A DNA stretch of 49,073 bases from Deltaproteobacteria bacterium (GTDB lineage Bacteria; Desulfobacterota; DSM-4660; Desulfatiglandales; Desulfatiglandaceae), in the NCBI GenBank assembly GCA_021737785.1, contig JAIPDI010000041.1:1-49073 (forward strand). The letters are read 5' to 3'. Position 1 is the stretch's first letter. Each line of letters opens with the position of its first letter. The position numbers and the translations under genes were made by a program. A model generated the notes under the pieces. The model was not told the DNA's origin, did not search any database, and worked only from the letters and a program-made list of their open reading frames with translations. Positions 386 through 7,063 of the stretch are shown one piece after another.

Positions 386-934
386 TCAAAACAAACTCCT
401 CTGCGTCCCGCCTGCCTCTTGTAGGTGGCCTATCGCAGCTGTGAGTACCTTCTCTCTTACATCCCTCCCACATCCAATTAGGAGACCCTGCCAATCAGCC
501 TCGCCCTTCAAAGTGAAAAACCGTTTGGCCGGCACGGCGTAGACCACGACGCTCTTATGTTGGCGCAAGAGGCGTGCGGCATTCGCAAGGGTTCCAGCGC
601 TCTTTCCATCCCAGATCATGAGACCCACGGAAGCCTCTTGGGCCATCTGTTCGTCTTTGGCGGCATAGTAGCTGAAATCTCTTCGGGTCTGACTGGTAGC
701 TACAGCCCGAACCGGCCACTTGCCCAAATTGTTCCTACATTCTCCACCTGAACAGAACACCTCGACCGCCTCGTAACCGCGACTTTGTAGGTACTTCTGA
801 ACAGCCTTGTCCACACCGTTGGCATCGCCGACAACCACGGGAAACCCTTGCTCGACGATTCGATCAATTCGCCGCCTGACTTCCTTGCTCAATCGCGATA
901 TTCGTCGAGATCCTCCTATGAACACCTTGGTCAT
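386..934 (-). CDS. SLOG-fold (DprA/LOG-like) nucleotide-binding protein
   Basis: 182 residues. The N-terminus runs beta-strand then GGSR (residues 7-10), followed by the glycine-rich GDANGVD segment (36-42) and a later GKSAGT motif (about 110-115) before a 'VVVY' strand. These are hallmarks of the SLOG/DUF2493 branch of the Rossmann-like LOG-DprA-TIR-related superfamily, which binds or cleaves nucleotide derivatives. No DNA-binding or membrane segment is evident, so it is likely cytosolic. Its ATG overlaps the phosphoribosyltransferase stop (ATGA at 931-934), so the two are almost certainly translationally coupled. The substrate is unknown. Nucleotide salvage or nucleotide-signal sensing in defence are both possible; family assignment is firmer than function. 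Confidence 0.75.
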   Translation of the reverse strand: MTKVFIGGSRRISRLSKEVRRRIDRIVEQGFPVVVGDANGVDKAVQKYLQSRGYEAVEVFCSGGECRNNLGKWPVRAVATSQTRRDFSYYAAKDEQMAQEASVGLMIWDGKSAGTLANAARLLRQHKSVVVYAVPAKRFFTLKGEADWQGLLIGCGRDVREKVLTAAIGHLQEAGGTQRSLF

Positions 935-1521
935 GATCTGCTCCGCGTTCGAGTTAGGGCCAGGGCGTATACGTCCGCAACAGCTCCCTCATCATAGAGC
1001 GCTGCTGTGATCGCGTTCATTGTAGCTCCTGACCGATACAGGTCATCGAATAGGAGAACCTTCTGCCCTTTGAGGACCGATGCATCGACCGTATGTGCAC
1101 CATAGAGGAGACGGAGCCTTTCATCGTAGGCGTAAACGTTCTTAAGCTCGGGTGTCTCCTTGACTCGCGTGACACCGTTCCAGCGAACGGGAATGCCGAT
1201 CGTTGTTCCAAGCCTCTCCGCGATGAGGTGGAGTGGCTGTTCAGCCCGCACTCGGGAGGGAGGAACAGGAACAAGAATGGTCACTTCAGGATTCCATTCT
1301 CGAACAAATCTTGCAGCGACCTCAGCAAGTTGGTTAAGCGCGCTCTTGTCCGAGCGGTACTTAAGGCGGTATAGCAACTCGCCGACCTGGCTTCTCTTGG
1401 TGTCAAACATCGCATGGCCGTATTCGTCATCACCAAGATACGTGCTGCTAAGTGTGTGGTAATCCAACACGTACCCTGTACGCCATCGGCCGGGAATCTG
1501 CATTGGTCTAATGTTCACCAT
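931..1521 (-). CDS. ComF-like phosphoribosyltransferase
   Basis: 196 residues. The type I phosphoribosyltransferase PRPP loop is clear: a hydrophobic strand then DDLYRSGAT (residues 159-167). A 'LVPVPPSR' strand-turn (83-90) is typical of ComF/GntX-like members. The N-terminal zinc-finger cysteines of true ComFC are absent, so this is not simply the competence protein. Such enzymes join or exchange a base with 5-phosphoribosyl pyrophosphate. The start is ATG with GGAG eight bases upstream. It is the first gene of a two-gene operon with the SLOG protein. Because LOG-type SLOG enzymes split a base from ribose phosphate, a paired salvage or signal-turnover cycle is plausible but unproven. Confidence 0.75.
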   Translation of the reverse strand: MVNIRPMQIPGRWRTGYVLDYHTLSSTYLGDDEYGHAMFDTKRSQVGELLYRLKYRSDKSALNQLAEVAARFVREWNPEVTILVPVPPSRVRAEQPLHLIAERLGTTIGIPVRWNGVTRVKETPELKNVYAYDERLRLLYGAHTVDASVLKGQKVLLFDDLYRSGATMNAITAALYDEGAVADVYALALTRTRSRS

Positions 1522-1607: not shown

Positions 1608-1637
1608 ATTATTTAACGTAATGACGAAGTATGTAAA
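1608..1637 (-). promoter_or_regulatory. Possible sigma70 promoter of the PRTase-SLOG operon
   Basis: Reading leftward, TTTACA (1632-1637) and AATAAT (1608-1613) are separated by 18 bases, each matching five of six consensus positions. The site is about 87 bases upstream of the phosphoribosyltransferase ATG, in an AT-rich stretch. Found by eye only. Confidence 0.3.
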
Positions 1638-2097: not shown

Positions 2098-3114
2098 TTA
2101 GCGGTTCTCGGCTTTTTCCAGCGAGTTGTTAGCTGCCCGTTCAATCTTATTCAGATGATCATTTATAATTTTTAAGAAAGGGCGATCTTCTTTTATGGAA
2201 TAACCACTACTGCCTATTTCAATAGATTCCAATTCGGTTAGATAATCGTGTTGTGAAATCTCCCAAACAATTCCATAGAGATCTGCAAGATAAAGAATGA
2301 TTTCTGCGTATTCATAGAACTCATTCTGCGTATGATTTATTACGTTTCTGCCATTTTCAACTCGCAAGAAATCAAAATGGCTTTTATAATCTATGTGTGT
2401 TTTTTTACTCAAAAAGCCATAAAGCTGGCCTGCCACAGGTTGAGTCTTTTTAAGCGCTGATATAGTTTTGGTTGTAGATATTTTGCTTATATCCTCAATG
2501 TTGTCTAAACAGCATGCTGTATGTGCCCATGCTATTTGCTCCAAAATTAGTCGTGAAACAGCGTGGCCTTCATACCGATGACCAAGAGAATACAGTAAAT
2601 GTGAAGAGAAAAAACTATACAACAATCTTTCAAGAACAACGGATGCACCAAAGACACCATTTGAAGGAAGTGGTAGCTCTTCATCTGAATCCACAAATTT
2701 TGATATCATTGATAAAATGAAACGTTTTGCGGACATATATGCTTTAATATATTGTATTCTGGCGCTTTTCTCCTCTGACGAAGTATCAACAGGCTCTGAG
2801 TCGCAATATCGTTTCTTAGCGTAATCAATACTTTCGAGACCGTATGAAGAAGCGATAACAGCCGCTTCAACATTTTCACTCAAAGTCCGAACGTTAAAAA
2901 AACGTGGGATTAAGGCAGTGTATAGATTTGTTGAAAGAACCTCATAATCTTCTAAAAGGCGATGAACGTTTTCAGCTATACTGTTCCTAACCCTCAAAAA
3001 AGTTTTGTCTTTGGTATACACAGTGTTCAGTTGCCTCTTAACTCTAATGAAAGAGAGCTGGGATGCAGGTCCCGATATCGTATCGTGCGACCTTAAGGGC
3101 TTTGCATCGATCAC
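2098..3114 (-). CDS. Unknown helical protein with HEPN-like RNxxxH motif
   Basis: 338 residues from a GTG at 3114. No family is recognised with certainty. The gene is markedly AT-rich compared with its neighbours, suggesting separate acquisition. The protein is predicted all-helical. Residues 256-261 read RNVINH, matching the R-N-x3-H pattern of HEPN ribonucleases, and a 'LSKKTH' segment (235-240) recalls DUF5677/AbiV-like proteins. The start is uncertain: the same frame runs upstream to a TGA at 3136-3138 that closes the restriction-enzyme remnant, no good ribosome site precedes 3114, and a GTG about 30 codons in is an alternative. Its place beside a decayed restriction module suggests a defence or toxin role, as inference only. 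Confidence 0.55.
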   Translation of the reverse strand: MIDAKPLRSHDTISGPASQLSFIRVKRQLNTVYTKDKTFLRVRNSIAENVHRLLEDYEVLSTNLYTALIPRFFNVRTLSENVEAAVIASSYGLESIDYAKKRYCDSEPVDTSSEEKSARIQYIKAYMSAKRFILSMISKFVDSDEELPLPSNGVFGASVVLERLLYSFFSSHLLYSLGHRYEGHAVSRLILEQIAWAHTACCLDNIEDISKISTTKTISALKKTQPVAGQLYGFLSKKTHIDYKSHFDFLRVENGRNVINHTQNEFYEYAEIILYLADLYGIVWEISQHDYLTELESIEIGSSGYSIKEDRPFLKIINDHLNKIERAANNSLEKAENR

Positions 3115-3135: not shown

Positions 3136-3312
3136 TCACTTCCATCCTTGTTCATAGGGTCCAAAAAACCGTTCACCGTCAAAATGTATCAAATGAGGTG
3201 GGGCGTCTCCAACCCATACCTCCCTCTCCCATGCAATATCGGCAAGATCTCAGGCCAGCATTTGCGGCCGGAAATAATTGGTATCCCCCACATGGGCACC
3301 TTTGTCACTCAT
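3136..3312 (-). pseudogene. Remnant of BsuBI/PstI-type restriction endonuclease
   Basis: An ATG overlaps the methyltransferase stop (ATGA at 3309-3312) and opens 20 codons. These end at an in-frame TGA (3250-3252), after which the same frame continues for 37 codons to TGA at 3136-3138. The second part contains DIAWEREVW, then HLIHFDGERFFGPY, matching from memory the conserved extreme C-terminus of BsuBI/PstI endonucleases. A whole enzyme is about 300 or more residues, so most of the gene including its catalytic part is missing, and one internal stop (perhaps CGA to TGA) has been gained. The upstream methyltransferase is the usual partner of this endonuclease family, which supports the call. 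Confidence 0.65.
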
Positions 3313-4796
3313 GCTGCCATGCCCTCCAATTTCTCATCGATGGTTTCCTGGCTGAGTTCCGAGCGTCCCAAGGCCCATTCACCGACGGCGATCAGCGTTT
3401 CACGGCTCGGATACCTCATCCGGTTAAGATCCGTTGCGTTAACCTGCGTGTGGCCGTTGAACGCCCGAAAATTCTCGTCAACCGCGGTCGTGTTAAGAAA
3501 TACGGCGAGACCGGCGGCCACTGCTTTTGGTAACCCCTTCTTGTCTTGATGGAAGACGTTCAGATGGTTCTCGAAGCCAATCAAGGGGGAGCCCCCGAAT
3601 TTGGAAGGGTCGACAATATTGGCCACAACCCGTCTTCTTTCTTCTTTGGACGAAAATCGGCGTACCACGCAATAACATCCATTCGGATAAAGCCATTTTT
3701 CGGTTTCGCTGTTTCGCCGGATGGCATTCGGTTTCTTCATGGCCGGCTTAGGCCATTCAGTCCCCTTGCTACTAAAATGACCGGGGTAGAGCAGCGGCAC
3801 GGTACCCGCCTCTGGCATTTGACGCAAGTGTTCTTTTACGCGGAAATCAACCACCGGTCCAGTGGAAACCCTTATGTTGAGGTCATTCAAGGAATAACGG
3901 ATAGCCGGGGAGGATTCAATGGCATTTATTTCAAACGAGGTGGGCACGCGAATGAATCGTTCGGGATCGTCCGGAAAAATGATCCGTTCCAATGGATATT
4001 CCTGAACGGTTAAGTCATCGAAACTCTCGTCTGTTGACGTTGAAATGCGTATCGGACCCTGGCGACCACCACGCTCCAATCGAATGATGATATTTTCCTG
4101 CAGGACATCGTCGTCCTTGAATGCCTTGTTGCGCGAGCTAAACAGGTGAATCTGTTTGATCACGGCCTGCTCAAGCATAAAATTGCGAAAAGGGCGATAA
4201 TACGGCCCATTGCAGAAGCTGCGGGGGATGATCGCAACGAGTTCTCCTTGGTCATCAAGGAGAGACAGCGATAAGGCGACAAAGGCAGAATATAAATTGA
4301 CAGTCTCGATTCCCACTTTCCGTAATGCGGCCCGGTGTGCGGAGTCGCTTCTTATTTTTTTGTAAGGCGGATTCAAGATTGCGTGCGTGTAGCCAGGTAG
4401 TGCCGCGGCGAAGAGATTACCAAAAAGGCTATCTGCCGCGGCGTGAACGAAATCGACATTTCGGATCAGCGGCACCAAACCGGCTTGGTCCTCATATGCC
4501 GCAAGCGTCTTATTCAAATACGGCAGGAGGGCCTTGTCAATTTCAAAGGCATGGAGTTCAATTCGCCGAAAATTGAGGCCACCAGACACCCATCTATCCA
4601 AAAACGCTGCGGAAAGAGACCCAATCCCGGCTCCTGGGTCAAGGAGTCGACAATCTTCCTTTCCGCCTACGTCAAACATTTCTGCCATGAAGCGGGCGAT
4701 GGATGCGGGGGTAAAGAACTGACCGAACTGCGACTTCCTTTTGGGATCCATGGCCCTTGATACGGTCAGCCTTGTCTGATCAACCTCTGAAAGCAA
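3309..4796 (-). CDS. PstI/BsuBI-type N6-adenine DNA methyltransferase (orphaned)
   Basis: 495 residues. The N-terminal GQFFTP (25-30) precedes motif I DPGAGIG (53-59), which binds S-adenosylmethionine, and motif IV NPPY (142-145), the catalytic site of gamma-class N6-adenine methyltransferases. A C-terminal target-recognition half follows. The layout matches the Eco57I-like branch containing M.PstI/M.BsuBI, which methylate CTGCAG; that target is predicted, not shown. The start is TTG at 4796 with AGGAG eight bases upstream. Directly downstream, overlapping by four bases, is the remnant of the matching endonuclease, so the enzyme probably acts alone, for epigenetic marking or protection from incoming PstI-like restriction. 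Confidence 0.85.
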   Translation of the reverse strand: MLSEVDQTRLTVSRAMDPKRKSQFGQFFTPASIARFMAEMFDVGGKEDCRLLDPGAGIGSLSAAFLDRWVSGGLNFRRIELHAFEIDKALLPYLNKTLAAYEDQAGLVPLIRNVDFVHAAADSLFGNLFAAALPGYTHAILNPPYKKIRSDSAHRAALRKVGIETVNLYSAFVALSLSLLDDQGELVAIIPRSFCNGPYYRPFRNFMLEQAVIKQIHLFSSRNKAFKDDDVLQENIIIRLERGGRQGPIRISTSTDESFDDLTVQEYPLERIIFPDDPERFIRVPTSFEINAIESSPAIRYSLNDLNIRVSTGPVVDFRVKEHLRQMPEAGTVPLLYPGHFSSKGTEWPKPAMKKPNAIRRNSETEKWLYPNGCYCVVRRFSSKEERRRVVANIVDPSKFGGSPLIGFENHLNVFHQDKKGLPKAVAAGLAVFLNTTAVDENFRAFNGHTQVNATDLNRMRYPSRETLIAVGEWALGRSELSQETIDEKLEGMAA

Positions 4797-5062: not shown

Positions 5063-5190
5063 GTTATCACATTATTATGAAATCAAGAGGTGGGCGGTTT
5101 TCGGGATTTTTGTTGAACCGCAAAGAACGCCAAGAGTGGTTTGGGTGTTTCTATACACCACTGCCGGAGGCATGGTGGTTTTCGTTTGTC
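5063..5190. repeat. Dispersed repeat copy R1 (GTTGAACCGCAAAG family)
   Basis: The segment contains an AT-rich lead, gaggtgggcgg, then tgttgaaccgcaaagaacgccaag, and after about 30 bases ccactgccggaggcatggtggttttcgtttgtc. Its first half recurs in direct orientation at 7064-7125 and its second half recurs inverted at 7168-7243. A shorter relative lies at 8139-8170. It overlaps the end of the degenerate copy of the ATPase tail. Confidence 0.7.
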
Positions 5191-5430
5191 GGGGATGGTG
5201 CGCTCTACCAGTCCGTCGGCAAGGGCTGGGTCGATGTAGCGCTCACGGAGATGAGCACGGTCTCTAAGCCCCAGATTTGTAAGGATTTCCGAGTTTCCGA
5301 GAGGGCCACTTGAGCCAATCAGACGAATCAAAACAACCACCGCGACTGGTGGGGCGACTGGTAGCGTGACTATGGCCTCATGGGCCTCGACTTGCCCGCT
5401 CACTTGTCCGGTAGCCGCAATGTTCTTCAT
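5083..5430 (-). pseudogene. Degenerate duplicate of the ATPase C-terminal winged helix
   Basis: The first 60-70 residues nearly repeat the tail of the next gene upstream: both contain VAVVVLIRLIGSSGPLGNSE and then YIDPALADGLVERTIP. After that the frame runs into dispersed repeat R1 and ends in unrelated residues. At DNA level about 170 bp at 5196-5366 copy 5524-5693 with scattered changes, offset by about 328 bp. This is a tandem duplication of a gene end, not an independent gene. Confidence 0.7.
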
Positions 5431-6329
5431 GGACGGCTCTTTCCCTTTTCCAACTGTTCCAGTAACCTGCGGCCCTTTTCCGTGAGCCGGTATTTCTGGA
5501 GGCGACTGGTGGGTTTCTCGGGAATGGTGCGCTCCACCAGTCCATCTGCAAGGGCTGGGTCGATATAATGCTCACGAAGATGCGTACGATCTTTAAGTCC
5601 CAGATTTGCAAGGATTTCTGAGTTTCCGAGAGGCCCGCTTGAGCCGATCAGACGAATCAGAACAACCACCGCGACTGGTGGGGTGACTGGTAGGTTGACT
5701 GGTAGGGTATCTTGCGGGGTGACTTGCGGGGTGACCTGGTCCCGACTTGGCCCCGACTTGGCCCATGGCTCAGGCTTTTTCCTCCGGATCGTCAACACAA
5801 AAAACCCTCCGTCAAGCCTGATTTCAGGTTCAGGAAGCCCGGCTTTACTGCATCGCCGGATCATATCACGGATTCCGGTGCCCATGCGTTCGATGTACTT
5901 GGTCAGGTACATGGGCTCGGCCAGAAGCGGATTATGGGGTACTGAGGCATGGGGGCCGCGCAGTTTTTCAAGCGTCAGGGTCGGCGGCAGGGTTCCGGGA
6001 TTCCAGACTTCGAGCCGATCTTTAAAGAGCATGACCTGCACGCTGGCATTGCTGGTGTAGTCGCGATGCACGACGGCATTGACGATGGCTTCGGCGACAA
6101 CTTCCTGCGGAATTTCGTATTTCGTCGGCGCCTGGGTGCTTTCCGCTCTTGTTCCCACCCAGAGGTCTATCTTGGAGAGCACGAAATCCTTGGCCTGATC
6201 CACGAGATCGAAAACCGTGCCTTTGTACACCTGATAAGAAGGAATGGGTTTTGCCACCGGTTTTCCTGGATTCCGGCCAAAACCGTGCCGGAATGACGGA
6301 AGGTAAACGTGCAGTGGAAGGATGGCCAT
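5427..6329 (-). CDS. RecG/Schlafen-like ATP-binding protein, 5'-truncated
   Basis: 300 residues. The core (about 70-150) carries a GHKL-type ATP-binding motif set: EAIVNAVVHRDY, then VWNPGTLPP, and YIERMGTGIRDMI (about 145-158). A linker with QVTPQVTPQ repeats and a C-terminal winged-helix segment follow. This matches the family annotated as 'ATP-dependent DNA helicase RecG-related', which normally begins with an AlbA/Schlafen DNA-binding domain and is about 400-480 residues long. Here that domain is missing; the first 25 or so residues are read from a palindromic repeat (6270-6294) and no good ribosome site precedes the ATG. It is probably a truncated remnant, though its reading frame is open. 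Confidence 0.7.
   Translation of the reverse strand: MAILPLHVYLPSFRHGFGRNPGKPVAKPIPSYQVYKGTVFDLVDQAKDFVLSKIDLWVGTRAESTQAPTKYEIPQEVVAEAIVNAVVHRDYTSNASVQVMLFKDRLEVWNPGTLPPTLTLEKLRGPHASVPHNPLLAEPMYLTKYIERMGTGIRDMIRRCSKAGLPEPEIRLDGGFFVLTIRRKKPEPWAKSGPSRDQVTPQVTPQDTLPVNLPVTPPVAVVVLIRLIGSSGPLGNSEILANLGLKDRTHLREHYIDPALADGLVERTIPEKPTSRLQKYRLTEKGRRLLEQLEKGKSRP
6270..6294. repeat. Palindromic repeat ATTCCGGC-n9-GCCGGAAT
   Basis: A perfect 8-bp inverted repeat with a 9-base loop, flanked by bases resembling the common 'cgtcattccgg...ccggaatcca' intergenic repeat. It sits exactly where the ATPase protein loses homology to its family, so it marks or caused the 5' truncation. Confidence 0.65.
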
Positions 6330-6369: not shown

Positions 6370-6783
6370 CTAAAGATAGGCCACCTTAAGCTGTCTCATG
6401 GACTTCGCGATGATATCAAAGTGGGCGGCGTACTCTGTGTAAAGAACCGCACCGATGGAAACGGCCGTGTGTGCAATTTGAACATCGTTCAAGAAATCCG
6501 CTTTTTTGGAGAGGGCCTTGTACATGGGAGGGAGATCTGAAAAAAATTCTCCGATCCGGATGTATTGCTCAGGAGTCAACGTAACCATCCGACCGGCATC
6601 CATGTACGGTTTTTGGAGTTGATTAAGGAGCCTTTCCCCCCGCTTGTTTCTGATTCCGGCCCAAAGCTCCATTAAAACCACTCCGGAGAGGTACTTGGTG
6701 GTTCCACGGCGCAGGAGTTCGGTGCTGTGGGTCCTGTTGCGGATAAAAGAGATGTAGATGTCGGTATCGAACATCACCTTCAT
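6370..6783 (-). CDS. vapC: PIN-domain ribonuclease toxin, VapC family
   Basis: 137 residues, usual size for VapC. Acidic metal-binding residues are in place: D6 in FDTDIYI, E39 in VVLMELWAG, D100 in FLNDVQIAHTA and D123 in AAHFDII. PIN toxins cleave RNA, often tRNA or rRNA. The ATG overlaps the stop of the antitoxin gene by four bases (6780-6783), the classic vapBC layout with antitoxin first. The gene lies between repeat copies R1 and R2 together with the truncated ATPase, consistent with a mobile or recombining segment. Confidence 0.85.
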   Translation of the reverse strand: MKVMFDTDIYISFIRNRTHSTELLRRGTTKYLSGVVLMELWAGIRNKRGERLLNQLQKPYMDAGRMVTLTPEQYIRIGEFFSDLPPMYKALSKKADFLNDVQIAHTAVSIGAVLYTEYAAHFDIIAKSMRQLKVAYL

Positions 6784-6974
6784 CTGAAGATATCCTCAAT
6801 CAGATCCCCTTTGCCGGCTACCGACTCATGGGCCTCGATAATCTGATCATCGATAATCACCATCTCCAGGGCCTTGTTGACGGCCTGCTTGTCGGTCCTC
6901 ACCCCAAAGATCCGGCGGGCCATATCGATATGATCCTGATCCAGTTCAATGGTTTTCTTGACCATTCTGGGCAT
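6780..6974 (-). CDS. vapB: Ribbon-helix-helix antitoxin, VapB family
   Basis: 64 residues from ATG at 6974, chosen because AAGGAGGT lies seven bases upstream; a longer frame starting 60 bases earlier lacks such a site. The protein begins MPRMVKKTIELD and has the short strand plus two helices of VapB/DUF2191 antitoxins (ARRIFGVRTDKQAVNKALEM). The acidic C-terminus (EDIF) would bind the PIN toxin. It is expected to repress its own promoter together with VapC. Confidence 0.8.
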   Translation of the reverse strand: MPRMVKKTIELDQDHIDMARRIFGVRTDKQAVNKALEMVIIDDQIIEAHESVAGKGDLIEDIFR

Positions 6975-7063
6975 GTGCGCTACCTCCTTAGCCATATTTA
7001 TTGACATTTTATATGGGTGGAACGGAAATATCAAGAAAAATACGTGCGGTGCCGGCTTCTTGT

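Follow-up and report, generated by a model that had tools for sequence, protein, structure and literature searches.

The two genes at positions 386–1521 of the window, the 49,073-nucleotide stretch of DNA analysed here, very probably constitute a toxin–antitoxin module, with a ComF-like phosphoribosyltransferase (PRTase) as the toxin and a single-domain SLOG protein as the antitoxin. The computed basis of this assignment is a conserved operon, the two predicted folds, a PRPP site, HTH fusions, broken toxin genes beside intact SLOG genes, and the carriage of the pair by mobile elements. Toxicity, neutralization, a nucleotide-pool mechanism and triggering by phage would follow by analogy with ShosTA and RqlHI.

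Both reading frames are intact on the minus strand, and the PRTase gene precedes the SLOG gene. The first gene (931–1521, minus strand) encodes the predicted toxin of 196 residues, and the second (386–934, minus strand) encodes the predicted antitoxin, a DprA/SMF-like protein of 182 residues. The PRTase stop codon overlaps the SLOG start codon in the sequence ATGA (931–934, minus strand), and a Shine–Dalgarno-like GGAG lies ahead of each of the two starts. Residues 155–167 of the PRTase (1021–1059, minus strand) form the PRPP-binding loop, VLLFDDLYRSGAT, which is evident in the sequence and in the family alignment; Asp159, Asp160 and Gly165 are invariant among 58 aligned relatives. The SLOG protein carries the motifs FIGGSR and GDANGVD. 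The coordinates, overlap, loop and motifs (GGSR and GDANGVD) reported in the initial annotation all agree with the open reading frames and their translations. A possible promoter, TTTACA-18-AATAAT (1608–1637, minus strand), matches the consensus at 10 of 12 positions about 90 nt ahead of the PRTase start; it comes from a consensus scan only, which yields about as many sites in shuffled sequences.

The annotation had also described a tight two-gene operon, and both the ATGA overlap and the conservation of the pairing bear this out. When one genome per species was searched with the PRTase profile alone, 80 loci were found, and a SLOG gene lies directly downstream on the same strand in 80/80. A search of viral contigs with the SLOG profile alone gave 20 loci, with the PRTase gene directly upstream in 18; one of the remaining two contigs is cut on the upstream side, and the other is a remote match. 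A single-sequence PRTase query gave no match among the viral contigs. Among the 107 pairs whose PRTase frame is open, 47 have the 4-nt overlap, and nearly all of the others are separated by 5 nt or less. In 58 pairs, the similarities of the two proteins are correlated with r = 0.85, against a highest value of 0.13 in 1000 shuffles. The pairing is far above chance, and the two genes are a conserved unit. Adjacency of the homologues across genomes, which the annotation had proposed to check and whose rarity it would have taken as a refutation, is therefore near-total.

The PRTase matches the TIGR00201 comF profile (6.5e-11). Its best match among the PADLOC models is PsyrT (1.2e-18), of which only the C-terminal PRTase part is matched (528–686 of 689), and it also matches ShosT (1.1e-7, profile positions 64–214 of 237). 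The AlphaFold model has a pLDDT of 94.1 (58-row alignment), and the nearest folds are H. pylori ComF (Z 16.8) and, in second place, ShosT with PRPP–Mg (Z 12.3); in a sequence search against solved structures, little was matched past the PRPP loop. PRPP binding by the PRTase is strongly suggested by the modelled fold together with the invariant DD and G residues. The PRPP loop is common to APRT and HGPRT, and the possibility that the PRTase serves purine salvage and is unrelated to its neighbour was considered. This reading is opposed by the invariable pairing, the patchy spread across phyla and the mobile context, and the profile scores favour ComF and PsyrT; purine salvage was rejected on profiles, pairing and spread, and we give it almost no credence. 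The salvage enzyme that the annotation had named as a possible refutation is therefore not what the profiles indicate. A RecQ part lost from ahead of the PRTase is likewise not supported, because relatives, which are also without a helicase, begin at the equivalent position (MVNIRPMQIPG in the window protein).

Although H. pylori ComF is the closest solved fold, ComFC is a competence gene product with a four-cysteine zinc finger, whereas the window PRTase contains no cysteine at all and the CxxC...CxxC pattern is absent from all 107 PRTase relatives. The host genome encodes a separate ComF (C3) and a separate DprA (C34). A housekeeping ComF/DprA identity was rejected because both genes are found elsewhere in the genome and the zinc finger is absent. 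The same observations weigh against a DNA-uptake or repair pair, in which ComF-like and DprA-like proteins would handle single-stranded DNA on mobile elements. The ComF and DprA fold matches agree with such a role, ComFC binds single-stranded DNA and is in some species an interaction partner of DprA (PMC9005727), and solo PRTases encoded by phages and conjugative elements have been proposed to function in DNA entry (PMC5512222). However, the SLOG protein is without the other DprA domains, and its relatives have gained antitoxin HTHs instead; we regard a DNA-uptake pair as very improbable.

The SLOG protein is less readily placed by its sequence. Its match to Pfam DNA_processg_A (6.6e-5, 59 residues) scores 22.6 bits, below the cut-off of 29.6. 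Among the PADLOC models, ShosA is matched at 3.8e-4 across 42 residues of 303, and PsyrA weakly (2.8e-3); at E < 1e-3, ShosA matches three of 58 SLOG relatives and PsyrA none of the 58. A sequence search against solved structures gave no match. The AlphaFold model (pLDDT 89.4, 58-row alignment) resembles YpsA (Z 13.5), DprA (12.4), ShosA (12.3) and LOG (12.2), which are not clearly separated, and the fold matches also include the 3'cADPR-bound SLOG domain of BcThsA. The pocket is strongly conserved across the 58 relatives at Arg67, Asn69, Asp94, Trp108, Ser112, Gly114 and Thr115. The LOG motif PGGxGTxxE corresponds to DGKSAGTLAN in the window protein, with Ser112, Gly114 and Thr115 invariant, and asparagine occupies the position of the LOG catalytic glutamate in 57 of the 58 relatives. 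The LOG-type cleavage of base from ribose phosphate that the annotation had raised for this protein is consequently unsupported and was rejected, since the catalytic motif is not kept.

The conserved pocket bears on two further readings. In the first, the SLOG protein would be an enzymatic antitoxin, LOG-like or DarG-like, that destroys the PRTase product or strips a modification; this is a variant that overlaps the toxin–antitoxin reading. Its invariant polar pocket residues exceed the apparent needs of partner binding, and its fold is close to that of phosphoribohydrolases such as LOG. The replacement of the catalytic glutamate by asparagine argues against catalysis, as does the known relative RqlI, which physically binds RqlH (PMC4670107), and we consider an enzymatic antitoxin unlikely. 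In the second, the pair would be a nucleotide-signal defence unit, in which infection would lead the PRTase to produce a nucleotide that the SLOG protein then senses, in the manner of the SLOG domain of ThsA. The strength of pocket conservation and the 3'cADPR complex among the fold matches speak for it. On the other side, neither protein carries an effector domain, and a third conserved gene was not observed among the variable nearest neighbours; the only recurrent fusions are to antitoxin-type HTHs; and the PRTase is the half that is found broken, whereas a signal-maker would be expected to be broken no more often than its reader. A signalling unit is in our estimation highly unlikely. Thoeris ThsA (SIR2–SLOG) shares with the pair the use of a SLOG nucleotide-binding fold in defence, but the window pair is without a SIR2 effector and without a TIR partner. 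A composite proposal would have the conserved pocket bind or remove the nucleotide that the PRTase makes or depletes, making the antitoxin a sensor or an enzyme in a separate, helicase-free family to which HTHs were added twice for autoregulation; taken as a whole, this is speculative and rather doubtful.

ShosTA, PsyrTA and RqlHI are toxin–antitoxin systems. The annotation knew of no described system with exactly this pair, which was wrong in kind: ShosTA of E. coli (PDB 8zva–8zvd), PsyrTA/RqlHI (PMC4670107) and the 'DprA + PRTase' system of P2-like phages (PMC9122126) all combine a PRTase with a DprA/SLOG protein. In rqlHI, the PRTase gene is upstream of the DprA-like gene, the RqlH PRTase is required for genotoxicity, and RqlI binds and restrains RqlH (PMC4670107). 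ShosT is reported to disturb purine metabolism, with T7 Gp0.7 as the trigger of ShosTA (reviewed in PMC12593503). The P2-like phage system defends E. coli from both T7 and lambda (PMC9122126); it is of the ShosTA kind and occupies the same P2-like prophage hotspot as E. coli pairs of the present family.

We compared the window pair with each of these systems. As in ShosTA, a helicase-free PRTase with a PRPP site in the PRTase fold, the predicted toxin, is adjacent to a DprA/SLOG protein, the predicted antitoxin, in one operon. However, ShosA is larger (PADLOC model of 303 positions) than the single-domain SLOG protein of about 180 residues, the PRTase part of the PDB ShosT chain is preceded by further residues (its alignment begins at 160), and the identity of ShosT and ShosA to the window pair in structure alignments is only about 11–12%. 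With PsyrTA/RqlHI, in which toxicity depends on the PRTase and the antitoxin is DprA-like, the pair shares a gene order with the toxin first and often overlapping genes. The differences are the RecQ-like helicase on RqlH/PsyrT (model of 689 residues), which the window PRTase is without, and the larger PsyrA model (398 positions), which matches the window SLOG weakly. PADLOC, on which catalogue coverage was judged alone, matches no whole pair with its models, and the window pair gives no full-length match to its ShosT and ShosA models. The ShosT model found no match anywhere in 198 genomes of the phylum, a silence shared by the controls and hence without weight. No description of a compact PRTase–SLOG pair was found in the literature searched. 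Since RecQ, the zinc finger and the LOG glutamate are all absent and the ShosA and PsyrA matches are fragmentary, the pair was not filed as a ShosTA member; it probably works like ShosTA yet forms a compact, separate branch.

This separation is also seen in the tree, in which the PRTases of the pairs cluster together with support 96, to the exclusion of chromosomal ComF and RecQ-fused PRTases. The pair is present in at least 13 named bacterial phyla. The window PRTase clusters with proteins of Hydrogenedentota, Rokubacteriota and Myxococcota and of one genome from its own order, and a close copy was not found in two genus-mate genomes of the host; both are as expected of a mobile module.

The toxin–antitoxin assignment draws further support from fusions and decay within the family. 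A C-terminal HTH is present in 37 of the 105 SLOG proteins whose length allows this to be judged; 19 of these tails resemble PF21716, 'probable addiction module antidote', and 18 resemble PF13744, HTH_37. The two types belong to two distant clades of the PRTase tree, and therefore the fusion most likely took place at least twice; the window SLOG itself is without an HTH. The PRTase half is the one that is lost. For example, the PRTase gene of Enterobacter plasmid pM308-NDM1 is interrupted by an IS3-family transposase gene and the SLOG gene is intact (L157:3962-5932), and in Allorhizobium plasmid pAtS4c only PRTase remnants are left ahead of an intact gene annotated as 'antidote'. In five fetched loci the PRTase frame is interrupted and the SLOG frame is open, some of these being MAG or draft contigs with possible sequencing errors. 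On plasmids, SLOG was counted in 98 and the PRTase in 65, and SLOG genes without a PRTase are common on Mesorhizobium-type plasmids. These PRTase-free genes on Mesorhizobium and Methylobacterium plasmids are possible orphan antitoxins, or they may serve another function; they adjoin RES/Xre and VapBC modules (L031:4001-4537, L032:3932-4537). The family shows these features of type II-like toxin–antitoxin systems: a two-gene operon on mobile elements, a DNA-binding HTH on the predicted antitoxin half in some members and a loss-prone predicted toxin half.

Plasmid-borne pairs adjoin partition, recombinase and replication genes, and on Agrobacterium plasmid pAtl-11c the pair is immediately preceded by a CD-NTase/patatin (CBASS-like) operon (L023:172-2403). 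In 5426 complete E. coli genomes, 33 contain relatives of one prophage-borne pair and eight match another. Two inspected E. coli loci are flanked by the genes for the P2 portal and the replication endonuclease, the position of the published gpQ–gpA P2 defence hotspot, and a third is at a different P2-like cargo site. Outside P2-like prophages the nearest neighbours are mixed, and defence genes are only occasional. We compared 98 nearest-neighbour proteins of the genome loci with 40 neighbours of chromosomal ComF genes using PADLOC. Matches among the pair neighbours were few (capP twice, and helicase and RT types once each among the matches listed) against none of the 40 controls, so there is no strong defence-island enrichment; ParA matches in the mixed neighbour set were traced to the ComF controls. 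The hint of defence in the annotation was thus well directed with respect to the relatives and the P2-prophage location, but the defence signal among neighbours outside prophages is weak.

That hint had been drawn from a decayed restriction module beside the pair. The methyltransferase in question (3309–4796, minus strand) is of the Eco57I/Alw26I adenine type and full-length against its profile (PADLOC MTase_II, 4.4e-206), and is therefore not decayed; the absence of a restriction partner stood, as no recognisable restriction enzyme adjoins it. Between the pair and the methyltransferase is a 338-residue open reading frame (2098–3114, minus strand) with no significant family match in four libraries, and between the pair and this frame is a possible small MITE-like element (1869–1995), single-copy in the host genome, with inverted arms of 24 and 14 nt (86–88% complementary) flanking 59 bp. 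Beyond the methyltransferase are a RecG/Fic-like C-terminal-domain protein gene (5083–6329, minus strand), whose 3' end is partly duplicated such that a 115-residue copy repeats part of a 300-residue gene, and a second toxin–antitoxin pair of VapB antitoxin and PIN toxin (6370–7034, minus strand).

In the proposed mechanism of the toxin–antitoxin module, free PRTase would bind PRPP and would be expected to disturb the PRPP or nucleotide pool and thereby damage DNA synthesis; toxicity through the PRPP/purine pool is suggested by analogy with ShosT. The SLOG protein, translated from the same transcript just after the PRTase, would restrain it, most simply by binding. Such neutralization has its precedents in RqlI and ShosA, and the operon order, HTH fusions and toxin-only decay support it. 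The module may then be an addiction or abortive-infection device on plasmids, prophages and chromosomal loci, from which the PRTase toxin would be released when a phage infects or the element is lost; the phage trigger is likewise modelled on the known systems. The toxin reading calls for caution, as the PRTase domain of RqlH showed no toxicity by itself; either a stand-alone PRTase behaves differently or the model lacks something.

In summary, this analysis would extend the PRTase/DprA class of phage-defence toxin–antitoxin systems to a compact family that spans at least 13 phyla, many plasmids and E. coli P2-like prophages and mostly escapes the PADLOC models. Having just two short genes (about 190 codons apiece) and no helicase of the kind that complicated RqlHI, the pair would provide a minimal system for studying how a PRTase poisons the cell and how this is prevented by a SLOG protein.
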